Assembly: GCA_027365225.1 (NCBI GenBank) | Contig: DAHXNV010000005.1 | Span: forward strand, 27,004 to 91,003 | DNA length: 64,000 bases | Direction of reading: 5' to 3' | Origin: Gammaproteobacteria bacterium | GTDB lineage: Bacteria; Pseudomonadota; Gammaproteobacteria; Steroidobacterales; Steroidobacteraceae | Notes under the pieces: model-generated | Told to the model about the DNA's origin: nothing | The model's database searches: none | Seen by the model: only the letters and a program-made list of their open reading frames with translations | Program-made: the position numbers and the translations under genes | Part shown: in pieces, positions 52,369 to 57,718 of the stretch | How positions within the stretch are numbered: the first letter of the stretch is position 1 | Layout of the letters: the number at the start of each line of letters is the position of its first letter

Positions 52369-53826
52369 ATGGACGCCGATCCCGTGCCGCCGCTTGCCAA
52401 CGCCTACTGGGTCCTGCCCGGAGATCTGTTGGCCGGAGAGCATCCGGCCGGGCTGACGCCCGAGTCGACCGTTGCGCGTCTCGCCCGGCTACGCTCAGCC
52501 GGCATCGCATCCATCATCGATCTGACCGAGCCGGAGGAAGTGGGCTGTTACGACGACGCGCTGCCGCTTGCCGTCGAGTACCGGCGCAAGCCGATTCGCG
52601 ATCACGGTGTGCCCGAGCGGCGCGAGCACATGGGCGAGATTCTCGACTGTGTGCACGAGGCGCTGCGCGCCGGCCGGCCGACCTATGTGCACTGCCGCGC
52701 CGGCATCGGCCGCACCGCCACCGTCATCGGATGTTTTCTCGTCGAACGGGGCCTGTCCGGAGAGCAGGCGCTCGATGAGCTGGCGCGGCTGTGGAAGCAG
52801 TCGGAACGCTCGCGCGACTGGGCGATCATTCCCGAGACCGTAGCGCAGGCCGAGTATGTCCGGACGTGGACGCCGCGGTCGATTGCCGCGCCGCAGGCGC
52901 CAACGCCGGCGGGTCAGCTGGCGGATCAGCCGGCCGATCCGCTGCTCGATCCGGGGGCGCTGTCGGCAGCCCGCCTGTTGCGCGAACGCTTCCTCGGCAC
53001 GCTCCTCGGCCTGGCTGCCGGTGACGCGGTTGCCGCTGCCACGCAGTACCGGCGGGCCGGGACCTTCTCGCCGGTGGCGGATCTGCTCGGCGGCGGTCCG
53101 TTCGGCCTGCCGCGCGGGGGCTGGAGCGATGACACGGCCATGGCGCTGTGCTTGGCCGAGAGTCTGCTCGAGTGCGGCGGGTTCGAGCCGCTCGATCAGG
53201 TCGAGCGTTACCGACGCTGGCAGCGCGAGGGCCATCTGTCGGCGACCGGCCAATGCCTGGGCATTACCGCGAGCACCGCCCGGGCGCTGGCGGTGGCCAA
53301 GTGGCGCCAGCAGCCGTTTTCAGGGTCTCACGATCCGGCGCGCCTCGATCCCGAGCCACTGTCGCGAGTCGCACCGGCTGTGTTGTTCTATTTCGCTGCG
53401 CCGCAGGAAGCGGTGCGCAGCGCGAGCGAAGCGGCGCGCACCACCTGCCAGGTGAGCACGGTGTTGACGGCCTGCGCCGATCTTGCGCATGCGCTGCTCG
53501 CGGCGCTGAGCGGGGCGTCCAAGTCACGCGTTCTCGCACATCAGAGTGCCGCACCGGGGCCCGGTGCGGGCAAGGGAGTCATGCAGGCGCTGTCGGGGGC
53601 GTTCGAAGCGTTCGGCGCCACGGATACCTTCCGCGATGCGGTGCTGCACGCGGCCAATCTCGGTGGAGATTCGGACGTCACCGCGGCGGTTTGCGGCCAG
53701 CTTGCCGGTGCCTTCTACGGCGCAAGCGCCATTCCGCGCCCCTGGCGCGAGGCGCTGCTGCGCGCTCAGCTGATCGAAACGTTCGCCGATCGGCTGCTGG
53801 CGCACGCGCTCGAGGGGTTGGGCTGA
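52369..53826 (+). CDS. dual-specificity phosphatase fused to ADP-ribosylglycohydrolase
   Basis: A 485-residue fusion. Residues 1-160 form a cysteine-phosphatase: general-acid Asp78 in IRDHGVP and P-loop His108-Cys109-Arg-Ala-Gly-Ile-Gly-Arg-Thr116. After a Pro/Ala linker (about 170-200) comes an ADP-ribosylglycohydrolase domain: GTLLGLAAGDAVAAA, the metal-binding SDDTAMALCLAESLL and GGDSDVTAAVCGQLAGAFYG. The glycohydrolase family removes ADP-ribose from modified proteins or DNA, or acts on dinitrogenase reductase. The metal-ligand Asp residues appear intact, so both halves could be active. It is 18 bases after ttcA and one base before the peptidase gene. Confidence 0.85.
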   Translation: MDADPVPPLANAYWVLPGDLLAGEHPAGLTPESTVARLARLRSAGIASIIDLTEPEEVGCYDDALPLAVEYRRKPIRDHGVPERREHMGEILDCVHEALRAGRPTYVHCRAGIGRTATVIGCFLVERGLSGEQALDELARLWKQSERSRDWAIIPETVAQAEYVRTWTPRSIAAPQAPTPAGQLADQPADPLLDPGALSAARLLRERFLGTLLGLAAGDAVAAATQYRRAGTFSPVADLLGGGPFGLPRGGWSDDTAMALCLAESLLECGGFEPLDQVERYRRWQREGHLSATGQCLGITASTARALAVAKWRQQPFSGSHDPARLDPEPLSRVAPAVLFYFAAPQEAVRSASEAARTTCQVSTVLTACADLAHALLAALSGASKSRVLAHQSAAPGPGAGKGVMQALSGAFEAFGATDTFRDAVLHAANLGGDSDVTAAVCGQLAGAFYGASAIPRPWREALLRAQLIETFADRLLAHALEGLG

Positions 53827-53827
53827 C

Positions 53828-54892
53828 ATGGCGCGTGCCGCCCGGCCCCGCTCCGCGAGTCCGCGCCGTACGCGCCCCGCACGCAAGGCCTGGAGCCGGC
53901 TGGGCGACGATGAGTTGCTGAAGCTGCGGTTCTGCGACCTCGGGCTCACGGTGCGCGGCTCGCCGATCGCGCGCGGCGTGCGCCGTCTATACAGCGAGCT
54001 GCAGGCGCGCGGAATCCGCTGCCAGCCGCACGTGTGGCTTGCCGAGGAATGGTTCACTCCGGATGGCGTGCCGGGGATCGCGGTGCCGTTTTATCTGGCG
54101 CATCCGCGCCTGAGGCGGCTCGAGCAGCACCTCATGACGCAGGCCGAGGGCGGCAATTCCCGGTGGTTCATGCGGATTTTGCGCCATGAGGCGGGCCATG
54201 CGATCGACAACGCCTATCGCCTGCGCCGGCGCAAGTGTTGGCGCGAAGTGTTCGGGCCCGCCTCGCGGCGCTACCCGCTGCGCTACACGGCGCGACCGGC
54301 CAGCCGGCGCTACGTGCATCATCTGGAAGACTGGTATGCGCAGGCACATCCGACCGAGGATTTCGCCGAGACGTTCGCCGTGTGGCTGACGCCGCGCTCG
54401 GCGTGGCGTACGCGCTACGCCGACTGGCCCGCGATGCGCAAGCTCCTGCTGGTCGATCAGCTGATGGCCGAAGTCCGCGGCCGCGCGCCGCCGGTGCGCA
54501 ATCGAACCCGCATCGAGCCGATCGAGACCAACCGGCAAACGCTCGGCGAGCACTATCGCCGCAAGCTCGCCCGCTACGGACAGTACCGCCGGAGCACGAT
54601 CGATGTGTTGTTGCAATGGCTGTTCAGCGCCGAGCGGCCGCGGCGCGACGCGCTTCGGGTCTCGACGCTGCTGCGAGCCAACCGGAGCGCGCTGATCGAA
54701 GCGGTCTCGCGCGAGCTTGGCTTGACGCGCTATAGTGTGCGCGAAATCATGCGCGCCGTGATAGACCGAAGCGTAGCGTTACAACTGTACATCCGCGGTG
54801 ACCGCCGTGACGCCGTGCATGTCGCACGCTGGATGTTGGAGAGATTGGCGTCGCTGTATTCGCAGGGCGAGACACCGCATATGCCGCTATGA
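53828..54892 (+). CDS. putative zinc-binding metallopeptidase
   Basis: A 354-residue protein with HExxH as His120-Glu-Ala-Gly-His124 (LRHEAGHAIDNAYRL) and a third-ligand candidate in HPTEDFAETFAVWL, followed by VDQLMAEVRG. It resembles the putative zinc-binding peptidase family often found beside ATP-grasp ligases. The N terminus is very basic (Arg/Pro-rich, residues 1-22). Its stop overlaps the ATP-grasp start (ATGA), so the two are co-translated. Substrate unknown. Confidence 0.78.
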   Translation: MARAARPRSASPRRTRPARKAWSRLGDDELLKLRFCDLGLTVRGSPIARGVRRLYSELQARGIRCQPHVWLAEEWFTPDGVPGIAVPFYLAHPRLRRLEQHLMTQAEGGNSRWFMRILRHEAGHAIDNAYRLRRRKCWREVFGPASRRYPLRYTARPASRRYVHHLEDWYAQAHPTEDFAETFAVWLTPRSAWRTRYADWPAMRKLLLVDQLMAEVRGRAPPVRNRTRIEPIETNRQTLGEHYRRKLARYGQYRRSTIDVLLQWLFSAERPRRDALRVSTLLRANRSALIEAVSRELGLTRYSVREIMRAVIDRSVALQLYIRGDRRDAVHVARWMLERLASLYSQGETPHMPL

Positions 54893-55911
54893 AGAAACTG
54901 CGCACGCTGGTCGTCGTGCACTCGAGCCTGGTGCCGCCGGAGTCCCTCGAGGGACATACCGACAAGGAAATCGACGAGTGGCGCACCGAGTACAACGTCA
55001 TCACGACGCTGCGTGACTGTGGGCACGATGTCCGATGCCTGGGCGTGCTCGACACGCTGACGGAAATGCGTCAGACGATAGCCGAATGGCAGCCGAACGT
55101 GGTGTTCAACCTGCTCGAGGAGTTCAACGGCATCGTCACCTACGACCAGCATGTCGTGGCTTACCTGGAGCTGCTGCGCCAACCGTATACCGGGTGTAAT
55201 CCGCGTGGTCTGCTGCTGTCGCGCGACAAGCCGCTGTCCAAGCAGCTGCTGGCTTATCATCGTATTCCGACGCCGGGTTTCGCGGTGTTCCGGCGCGGCG
55301 CCCGGGTGCGCGTGCCCCGCAAACTCGCCTTTCCGCTGTTCGTGAAGTCGACCACCGAGGATGCTTCCCTCGGTATCGCCCAGGCCTCGGTGGTGGAGGA
55401 TGCCGCGCGCCTGAAGGAACGTGTCGAGTTCATGTACGAGCAGATCGGCTCCGACGCGCTGGTCGAGGCGTACATCCCGGGCCGCGAGCTGTATGTCGGG
55501 GTTCTCGGCAACGATCGACTGACGCGGTTGCCGGTCTGGGAAATGGTTTTCGGCCGGATGCCGGAATCGCTCCCGGCGATCGCGACGCGCAAGGTCAAAT
55601 GGGACCGCTCGTACCGCGACCGCTATGGGATCACGACGCGCGCGGCGAGCGACCTGCCGGAGGGAGTGCTGGCGCAGCTCGATAAGCTCTCGCGGCGCAT
55701 CTACCGGGCGCTCGGCATGTCGGGCTATGCCCGCATGGACTTTCGCCTCGCCGCCGATGGGCGCATCTATGCGCTGGAAGCCAACGCGAATCCCAACCTG
55801 GAGGAGGGCGAGGACTTCGCGGAGTCGGCGCTCGCCGCCGGCATCAAGTACAGCGAGCTGCTCGAGCGGCTGATGTCCCTTGGCCTGTCCTACCGGGCGC
55901 TGTGGCGCTGA
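54889..55911 (+). CDS. ATP-grasp ligase (D-Ala-D-Ala ligase-like)
   Basis: A 340-residue ATP-grasp protein. VVFNLLEEFNGIVTYDQHVVAYLELL corresponds to the N-terminal D-Ala-D-Ala ligase region, PYTGCNPRGLLLSRDK to the substrate loop, LFVKSTTEDASLGIAQASVV to the ATP-binding segment and YALEANANPNLEEGEDFA to the Mg2+ site (E-x-N-x-N-P). It is probably not the cell-wall Ddl: the neighbours suggest a peptide-forming or -modifying role, with the zinc peptidase overlapping it by four bases. Confidence 0.82.
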   Translation: MKKLRTLVVVHSSLVPPESLEGHTDKEIDEWRTEYNVITTLRDCGHDVRCLGVLDTLTEMRQTIAEWQPNVVFNLLEEFNGIVTYDQHVVAYLELLRQPYTGCNPRGLLLSRDKPLSKQLLAYHRIPTPGFAVFRRGARVRVPRKLAFPLFVKSTTEDASLGIAQASVVEDAARLKERVEFMYEQIGSDALVEAYIPGRELYVGVLGNDRLTRLPVWEMVFGRMPESLPAIATRKVKWDRSYRDRYGITTRAASDLPEGVLAQLDKLSRRIYRALGMSGYARMDFRLAADGRIYALEANANPNLEEGEDFAESALAAGIKYSELLERLMSLGLSYRALWR

Positions 55912-56423
55912 GGCGGGCCGCGGCCCGCCGGAACCGCCCGAGTCCGCCTCGGCTTGCCTTCTGCGCTTCTCCCGCTGTAGCCAGAGGCGACCGCGGCTGA
56001 GCAAGCCGGGTGGCCGGAGCGGCGCCGTGTGGCGCGCTGCGGTGTGTGGCCGCCGCCATTGGCCACGCGACGAACAGCATGATTGCGCTCCTTCGGCACA
56101 GCTGGGCGTCGCTCGCTTGCGCGAGCCTCGGCCGCACGCCCACCTGTGGCTCGTGTTTCAAGTGATCGGTCGCGCTGGCGCAGCCGCTTCGGTTCGCACC
56201 AAGCCCCAGTAGTGTTGGGTCACCTGCGGGCCCGAGGGGTTCCCGGGCACAGGGAAATCGCGTTGGCGCGCACCCGTTGCAGCAGCACTCCCGGCGGCAG
56301 GCTGCCAGCGTCGACCGTGCCGTGGCCGGGAGATTCCGATGGATTTCACAACTCGGCGCGATCGACTTTGTCAAACCGTTGTCATTCCATGTAAGAGGGA
56401 ATTGCCCGGGAGGTCATTGCCGT
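55912..56423. other. 512-base gap with no supported gene
   Basis: Frames on both strands (for example 55844-56374 minus) are Ala/Arg/Pro-rich without known motifs. A weak TTGTCA-18-TAAGAG element at 56368-56397 could be the promoter for the following gene, whose start has GGGAGG about ten bases upstream. Confidence 0.35.
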
Positions 56424-57053
56424 ATGTCCGCAGCGAAAGTCCAGCCGGTCGTCAATCTGAAGGAATATTTCAAGGATGCGCTGCATGCGGCGCTGGTCAA
56501 CCAGCGTCTGTCGGTCGAGGGTGAGACCGAGCATTACGTGGTGAATGTGCTGACCCTGTTCGCACGTTCGGAAGCGCTCTTCGAGCCTACCCCCGCCGGG
56601 CGGCGCCTCAAGCCGCTCGTCATTCTGCTGTCGGAGGCGCTGGAGGCGCGCACGCGCGACGAGCGCAATCGCAGTCTGCAGCGGCTCGGGGACGTGTCGC
56701 TGTTCATTGCCGGCTTCTTTGCGCGCGGATTCGCCCGCAAAGTCGTCGACATCGACTATCACATCGCCATGGGTGGCTGCGCCTACGGCACTTTGGCGCG
56801 CACCGCCACGGCGCGCGGCGGCAGCGCGCTCGCCCAGGTGTTCGCCGAGCTGGCCGAGAAATTCCAGCCCATGGTCGATGCGCTCAACCAGTTGAGCGAG
56901 GCCGGCTACACGCATTCACCCGAGGATCTGCTGCGCCTGTACGAACTGTGGATCAAAACCGGAAGCCGGCGCAGCTACGCGCTGCTGAAGCGGTTGGGCA
57001 TCGAGCCGGTCGGGATCGGGGTCGGCGGCGCCGCGCTGCGCGCGTTGCATTGA
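56424..57053 (+). CDS. conserved protein of unknown function (first of a pair)
   Basis: A 209-residue, mostly helical soluble protein: VNLKEYFKDALHAALVNQRLSV at the start, then FARSEALFEP, DVSLFIAGFFARGFARKVVDIDYHIAMGGCAYGTLA and DLLRLYELWIKTGSRRSYALLKRLGI. I recall similar proteins in other gammaproteobacteria, always with the next gene, but no function. ATG 56424 replaces the track's start 49 codons upstream. Five bases separate it from its partner. Confidence 0.78.
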   Translation: MSAAKVQPVVNLKEYFKDALHAALVNQRLSVEGETEHYVVNVLTLFARSEALFEPTPAGRRLKPLVILLSEALEARTRDERNRSLQRLGDVSLFIAGFFARGFARKVVDIDYHIAMGGCAYGTLARTATARGGSALAQVFAELAEKFQPMVDALNQLSEAGYTHSPEDLLRLYELWIKTGSRRSYALLKRLGIEPVGIGVGGAALRALH

Positions 57054-57058
57054 GCGCC

Positions 57059-57718
57059 ATGTTGCTACGGAACGTACAGCGGCTGATCGGCGGCATCTAC
57101 GATCTCGGTGTCGACTACGACGTGTACGATTTCCTGGTCACCGACCGCGCCAATCTGCCGCCGCAGGTGCGCGCACGTGCCGGCCGCGAAGATCTCATCG
57201 TCGCGCAGCCGGCCGAGCCGGGCGCGGAGATCGCCGTCTCGCTGTACCTCGATCGCGATCTGCTCGAGCGGTTGCGTTGCGAGGATCCGCTGCGCTGCTT
57301 GCACTCGGGCAATGTCGCGGACTGGTGGACGGCGCTCGAGGGCGTCAGTCATTTCGTCTATTTGGCCTGGAACGCCAGCCATGACCGGCCGGTTTCGCTG
57401 CTCGAGCTCGAAATGCAGGCCGAAGTCGACAAATACGTGACCAGCTACTGGCTGTTGCGCCGCCAGAGCCCCGAGCATTTTCCGGCTGAGCTGCACCGGG
57501 CGCTGTTCGAGCGCACGCGCATCGATCCGGGGCTCGCCGACGGCCGCGAGGACCTCTACCGGCACGCCAGCCGCTACGCCGAGCGCTTCTGTCGCCACCT
57601 GGAGTTTTTGCTGCAGGGCGCTCGCGCCGGTGAGCGGCGCGGTGTGCTAGCCGAGCTGCGCCGCTTCTATCGCTTCACCAACGCGCGTAAATTGGCTCAC
57701 ATCGAGCGGCTGGCGTAG
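57059..57718 (+). CDS. conserved protein of unknown function (second of a pair)
   Basis: A 219-residue soluble protein: IGGIYDLGVDYDVYDFLVTDRANL near the start, AEIAVSLYLDRDLLERL, LHSGNVADWWTALEGVSHFVYLAWNA in the centre and a charged helical end (RFYRFTNARKLAHIERLA). No catalytic motif is recognised. It ends at a hairpin before the convergent Nudix gene. The ATG at 57059 (MLLRNVQRL) fits the end of the preceding gene; the track's start at 56948 lies inside it. Confidence 0.76.
   Translation: MLLRNVQRLIGGIYDLGVDYDVYDFLVTDRANLPPQVRARAGREDLIVAQPAEPGAEIAVSLYLDRDLLERLRCEDPLRCLHSGNVADWWTALEGVSHFVYLAWNASHDRPVSLLELEMQAEVDKYVTSYWLLRRQSPEHFPAELHRALFERTRIDPGLADGREDLYRHASRYAERFCRHLEFLLQGARAGERRGVLAELRRFYRFTNARKLAHIERLA

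Follow-up and report, generated by a model that had tools for sequence, protein, structure and literature searches.

The genes described here lie on the forward strand of a 64,000-nucleotide stretch of DNA, hereafter the window, from a gammaproteobacterium. Among named genomes, its closest relatives are metagenome-assembled ones labelled Proteobacteria and Steroidobacteraceae. The source assembly is incomplete (1.96 Mb in 218 contigs, 65.6% complete). The first gene (53828..54892) encodes a 354-residue protein, Pep, which Pfam, motifs, and a structural model lead us to regard as a predicted cytosolic zinc metallopeptidase of the gluzincin family Peptidase_Mx (PF15887). The second (54889..55911) encodes Lig, a 340-residue ATP-grasp amide ligase with the fold of D-Ala-D-Ala ligases and an altered acceptor site. 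The stop codon of Pep and the start codon of Lig share an ATGA (54889..54892, forward strand), from which translational coupling is predicted. This agrees with the initial annotation, which had placed here a zinc peptidase gene and an ATP-grasp ligase gene overlapping by four bases. Both genes evolve under purifying selection, which is stronger on Lig (pairwise dN/dS of ~0.15-0.26 for Pep and 0.06-0.19 for Lig), and because these ratios are low and orthologues are found in two phyla we consider them to be real genes and not chance open reading frames. Immediately upstream (52369..53826, same strand) is a gene with an unusual domain pairing, a DSP-type phosphatase resembling Tc-R-P/PTP-SAK fused to an ADP-ribosylglycohydrolase. 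Further downstream, two genes at 56277-57718 (~258 and 256 aa) are conserved together with a NUDIX gene in the family and have no Pfam or NCBIfam match. Two candidate features were rejected: a terminator directly after Lig, as the GC hairpin past its stop codon is no better than those of shuffled sequences (z -0.44), and a Pep-Lig fusion protein at locus L087, where the 677-residue frame is a mere upstream extension of that of Lig. Scans for terminator consensus sequences after Lig gave about as many sites as expected by chance.

Several features of Pep place it among the gluzincins. The window protein matches PF15887 with 28.7 bits (cut-off of 27), all 52 members of the set match this profile (E up to 0.001), and the only other match is a single one to PF15890; Pep is not of the M15 type to which VanX belongs. 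The zinc-binding motif HEAGH is at residues 120-124 (54185..54199), within a longer signature, HExxH...WYAQxHPxEDxAE, that is present in 80/80 orthologues. A solved relative in the family, 4l7a from Bacteroides caccae, shares HExxH and a YAxSxPxEDxAE stretch that aligns with the Pep signature in the profile comparison, but it is far more distant (HMM E 0.81) and Pep differs from it by an all-helical C-terminal half and a conserved ligase partner. Y170 and E177 (54335..54358) are invariant in 52/52 sequences. They have the same seven-residue spacing as Tyr178 and Glu185 of PPEP-1, its catalytic tyrosine and zinc-binding glutamate, and on the grounds of this spacing we propose that Y170 is the catalytic tyrosine and E177 the third zinc ligand. 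The structural model (pLDDT 87.5) has no significant match in the PDB: the best Foldseek match is a weak one to PPEP-3 (E 0.17, probability 0.80), followed by 4l7a and other gluzincins (E 0.17-1), and PPEP-1 is also matched weakly. The C-terminal half (residues 200-354) is conserved, and its 155 residues match no family. A helix-turn-helix in this region, suggested by a weak match to RpoS (E 0.094), was discarded for want of Pfam support. The first ~20 residues are modelled with low confidence, vary among relatives, and by eye do not resemble a signal peptide. Taken together, Pep is predicted to be a cytosolic, zinc-dependent peptide hydrolase.

Lig matches PF07478 (Dala_Dala_lig_C, 92 bits), and its model (pLDDT 91) is closest in Foldseek to DdlA of P. 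aeruginosa (E 2.9e-27). We aligned 52 orthologues with six true Ddl proteins from the same order. The residues expected to bind ATP and Mg and to form the oxyanion site (K114, K153, E193, E200, R282, D284, E297, and N299) are conserved in 52/52; E297-A-N299 (55777..55785) corresponds to the Mg-binding Glu270/Asn272 of DdlB, and aligns with the true Ddl throughout. The acceptor site is different. The position of DdlB Ser150, a serine in 6/6 true Ddl, is A/G159 in nearly all of the 52. Likewise, Ser281-Leu282 of DdlB, the clamp for the carboxylate of the second D-Ala, are Ser-Leu in 6/6 true Ddl and E/D308-D/E309 in nearly all of the 52. In the window this acidic pair is E308-D309 (55810..55815), and the two positions are acidic in 48/52 and 50/52 orthologues, respectively; the pair is not universal, being found in 87/99 sequences by a strict pattern. 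Lig thus shares with Ddl (NF002378/TIGR01205, and the VanA group) the fold and the ATP, Mg, and oxyanion residues, but lies below every curated NCBIfam cut-off listed (at best 125.1 bits vs 243 for NF002378), and a true Ddl is encoded elsewhere in the window's genome (G000:C218, 385.8 bits). Graspetide-type ligase families gave no match to Lig. Since the catalytic residues are kept and those of the acceptor site are replaced, Lig probably still functions as a ligase, though not one that makes D-Ala-D-Ala. The acidic pair suggests that the acceptor could be cationic or devoid of a free carboxylate, and both the putative acceptor pocket and the separate Ddl make wall chemistry of the D-Ala-D-Ala type a disfavoured reading. 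Of the closest ligases from outside the family, two (~33-34% identity, plasmid-borne) are encoded among diamino-acid genes, namely SbnA, an SbnB-like cyclodeaminase, diaminobutyrate transaminase, and lysine 2,3-aminomutase. This neighbourhood is a weak hint, because the acidic pair is missing from the outside relatives; most of the others have uninformative neighbours. Related Ddl-like ATP-grasp genes in L240 (Thioflavicoccus pTHIMO01) and L241 (a plasmid of Bradyrhizobium barranii) adjoin diaminopropionate/diaminobutyrate genes and lysine 2,3-aminomutase, in one case with a gamma-glutamyltransferase and a 7TM protein as well, and look like separate amide-forming pathways.

The association between the two genes is conserved. 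The four-base (A/G)TGA overlap between the stop of Pep and the start of Lig is found in 69/80 pairs and persists down to about 40-50% protein identity, and in several of the other 11 pairs another ATG would give the same overlap. Its retention in so many pairs, down to ~40-47% identity, argues against chance. The pairwise distances of the two proteins are strongly correlated (Mantel r 0.88, a value reached in 0/999 permutations). Overlap and parallel divergence suggest that the two genes are coupled in expression and inherited together.

The linkage extends far beyond the lineage of the window. Within the genus, Lig directly follows Pep in 24/24 other genomes that have Pep. In an evenly drawn sample of 229 genomes of the class (Pep counted at E <1e-80, Lig at E <1e-99), Pep is present in 10 genomes of other genera, Lig adjoins it in the same order in 10/10 (Fisher p 1e-17), and no member of the Lig family occurs without Pep. 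A sample of the phylum revealed Pep followed by Lig in 6/6 genomes (7-9 Mb) of one genus of another class. Among Planctomycetota, the Pep profile matches 66/294 sampled genomes. In the subfamily close to the Pep of the window, Lig lies directly downstream in 20/20 loci read (L248-L266, L276), as it does in two more divergent loci (L277, L278). More divergent planctomycete relatives of Pep (L279-L286) have no tandem Lig and sometimes occur in two or three copies per genome; partnership with Lig therefore belongs to one clade of Peptidase_Mx, and these proteins might represent a sister subfamily with another role. In the sample of the order (147 genomes), Lig is present in 46, Pep in 39, and both in 38. 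The sole Pep without Lig (G026) sits at a contig end, and the Pseudomonadota samples hold no other Pep lacking any Lig. In G730 the two genes are on different contigs, and since the related G738 has the pair and a second, orphan Lig, a copy swap is likely. The tree of Lig, in which support is weak for some deep branches, groups the genus of the other class with part of the planctomycete sequences (100/99 support) and places the window lineage among others; the planctomycete label requires three to five changes. We therefore infer that Pep and Lig moved together when they passed between phyla. The initial annotation had made its proposal depend on the two genes being neighbours in other taxa; they are, across two phyla. 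Its view that peptidase and ligase form a functional pair is therefore upheld by a linkage conserved far outside the lineage of origin.

No other gene is a regular companion of the two. Distant genomes, whether from the class, the order, or the other class, differ in their flanking genes, and no third gene among ORFs of at least 60 aa is widely common to them. When the ORFs of at least 80 aa in 34 loci spanning two phyla and several classes were clustered, only the groups of Pep and Lig occurred in more than five genomes. Hence, a linked gene for a precursor peptide, searched as a third widely common ORF of either minimal length in the distant loci, was not found. Candidates for a third gene of the cassette (S9 prolyl oligopeptidase, CpeT-like, GST, HAD, TtcA/M32) were rejected because they recur only in the family of the window or its close relatives. 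The S9 prolyl oligopeptidase gene is convergent and just 3' of Lig at L092:2208-4610, L161, L125, L133, and about 36 loci, in many Steroidobacteraceae and one further family, where its position is probably a matter of synteny. Carriage of Pep by plasmids or phages was searched for without a match. We conclude that Pep-Lig is a self-contained, real, and widespread two-enzyme module.

Even this small module can be reduced further. In the genome-contig set, 11 genomes encode Lig without Pep, both at the slot itself and by a whole-genome profile search that recovered 5/5 positive controls; these are mostly metagenome-assembled genomes, where single absences could be gaps, yet the slot is sequenced and empty in 11/11. 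Most of them have the phosphatase/ADP-ribosylglycohydrolase fusion gene directly before Lig. The loss of Pep requires about six changes on the tree. The order sample includes eight Lig without Pep, of which one (G659) is at a contig start and the other seven are in 96-100% complete genomes. Lig is thus the indispensable partner and Pep the dispensable one, and the retention of Lig after repeated losses of Pep argues against a role of Pep in preparing the substrate of Lig.

These observations lead us to a tentative model, to which we give a probability of roughly 40%, in which the cassette makes and unmakes one amide-linked compound or peptide modification. The adjacency and shared gene order of Pep and Lig in unrelated bacteria from two phyla make it very likely that the two enzymes act on one molecule. 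From its fold and residues, Lig would be expected to activate a carboxylate as an acyl-phosphate and join it to an amine to give an amide, with an acceptor other than D-Ala that might be positively charged or without free carboxylate. Translational coupling would ensure that Pep is made in step with Lig, and Pep would hydrolyse the product of Lig, or a closely related compound, the two enzymes sharing one substrate in the cytosol. Lig would then be the indispensable step, and Pep a removable step of recycling or quality control. We count against this model that the divergent planctomycete Peptidase_Mx manage without a tandem Lig, that Pep and Lig are separated in G730, that G738 has an orphan Lig, and that some Lig sequences lack the acidic pair; the dispensability of Pep also fits with it acting on something else.

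Other explanations share part of this evidence. The pair could belong to a small-molecule pathway, where Lig makes a dipeptide- or polyamine-like metabolite (a natural product, osmolyte, or storage compound) whose parts are released by Pep, in analogy to glutathionylspermidine synthetase/amidase; we find this doubtful while giving it some weight, because a cassette of two genes, an acidic pair suited to a cationic partner, and the diamino-acid neighbourhood of the two nearest outside ligases speak for it, but the pair has no biosynthetic or transport gene as a regular companion, the outside ligases lack the acidic residues and most of them, apart from those two, have uninformative neighbours, and the closest, if weak, fold matches of Pep include endopeptidases. 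Pep might instead act first, cutting cellular proteins or peptides whose released or newly exposed termini are then modified by Lig. Such an order of events has been proposed for branches 7 and 8 of the graspetide ATP-grasp tree (PMC8939145), where loci with peptidases lack a precursor gene, and is in line with the fixed, translationally coupled order of Pep then Lig and with the absence of a precursor-like third gene common to the loci. Nevertheless, we think it rather unlikely, since Lig was kept without Pep about six times independently, which is hard to understand if Pep supplies the substrate, and since Lig is of the Ddl type and matches no graspetide-type ligase family.

Two further readings were weighed. 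VanA and VanX, a Ddl-fold ligase and a zinc peptidase of vancomycin-resistance operons (VanX being an M15 D,D-dipeptidase), invite the idea of a change of cell-wall precursor, with Lig supplying a different dipeptide and Pep eliminating the usual one. The adjacency of the same two kinds of enzyme speaks for this; Pep is not of the M15 type and is often lost, Lig has lost the clamp for an alpha-carboxylate acceptor and has a different acceptor pocket, and the lack of a regularly linked third gene means that no VanH, regulator, racemase, or mur gene regularly accompanies the pair, so that we consider it very improbable. Hardly better is the suggestion of the initial annotation that the upstream fusion protein forms one modification system with the pair. 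The fusion does precede Pep or Lig in 56/62 loci of the genome collection with enough upstream sequence, and in two of them (L125, L133) it is retained although TtcA and M32 no longer flank the locus. However, these loci are mostly of Steroidobacteraceae, the family to which the full-length gene is mainly confined, and in the order sample the full fusion adjoins the pair in this family only. Other families and Planctomycetota have the pair without the fusion nearby; G650, which is a complete genome of the window's family, has the fusion and neither Pep nor Lig; and G672 has an unlinked related gene. This pattern fits inherited synteny, and given its absence beside the pair outside the lineage and its presence in G650 we treat the fusion as a lineage-specific, inherited neighbour outside the core module, so that this part of the earlier proposal does not hold.

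Comparison with known systems suggests that an ATP-grasp ligase beside a peptidase, without a precursor, is a recognised theme, of which Pep-Lig is probably a new variant. The loci of branches 7 and 8 resemble it in this respect, but have graspetide-type ATP-grasps and several peptidase families, whereas Pep-Lig has a Ddl-type ligase, one fixed peptidase family, and no other common gene. The Anbu operon, with its ATP-grasp, alpha-E, and transglutaminase-like genes, has been suggested to tag proteins (PMC6376114). It too brings an ATP-grasp ligase and a peptidase-like protein together in a conserved operon, but neither Anbu nor alpha-E, transglutaminase-like, or other genes are widely common beside our pair. 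In the literature searched, we found no description of the pairing of a Ddl-type ligase with a Peptidase_Mx, which Iyer et al. 2009 (Mol BioSyst) may mention, and nothing on the fusion gene beside ATP-grasp genes. An analogous logic exists in glutathionylspermidine synthetase/amidase, a single fused protein with a cysteine amidase whose two activities make and break one amide. Its ligase is from a different branch of the ATP-grasps, and Pep-Lig would likewise combine a ligase and a hydrolase acting on one amide.

More speculatively, the module could be a free-standing, reversible conjugation system of bacteria in which Lig would couple an amine-bearing group to proteins or peptides, and Pep would take it off again. 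We hold this to be quite unlikely; it would mean that a minimal, translationally coupled cassette of two genes with a dispensable eraser and an indispensable writer has been carried between Planctomycetota and Pseudomonadota. Whatever the substrate, the two genes are frequent in two broad groups of bacteria, as shown by the Pep profile in 66 of the 294 Planctomycetota and by Lig in 46 of the 147 genomes sampled in the window's order. They form a strictly conserved cassette with putatively opposing amide chemistry, small enough to be directly expressed and assayed, some of its hosts are in culture (Steroidobacter, Povalibacter), and the natural lineages that lack only Pep provide a built-in comparison.
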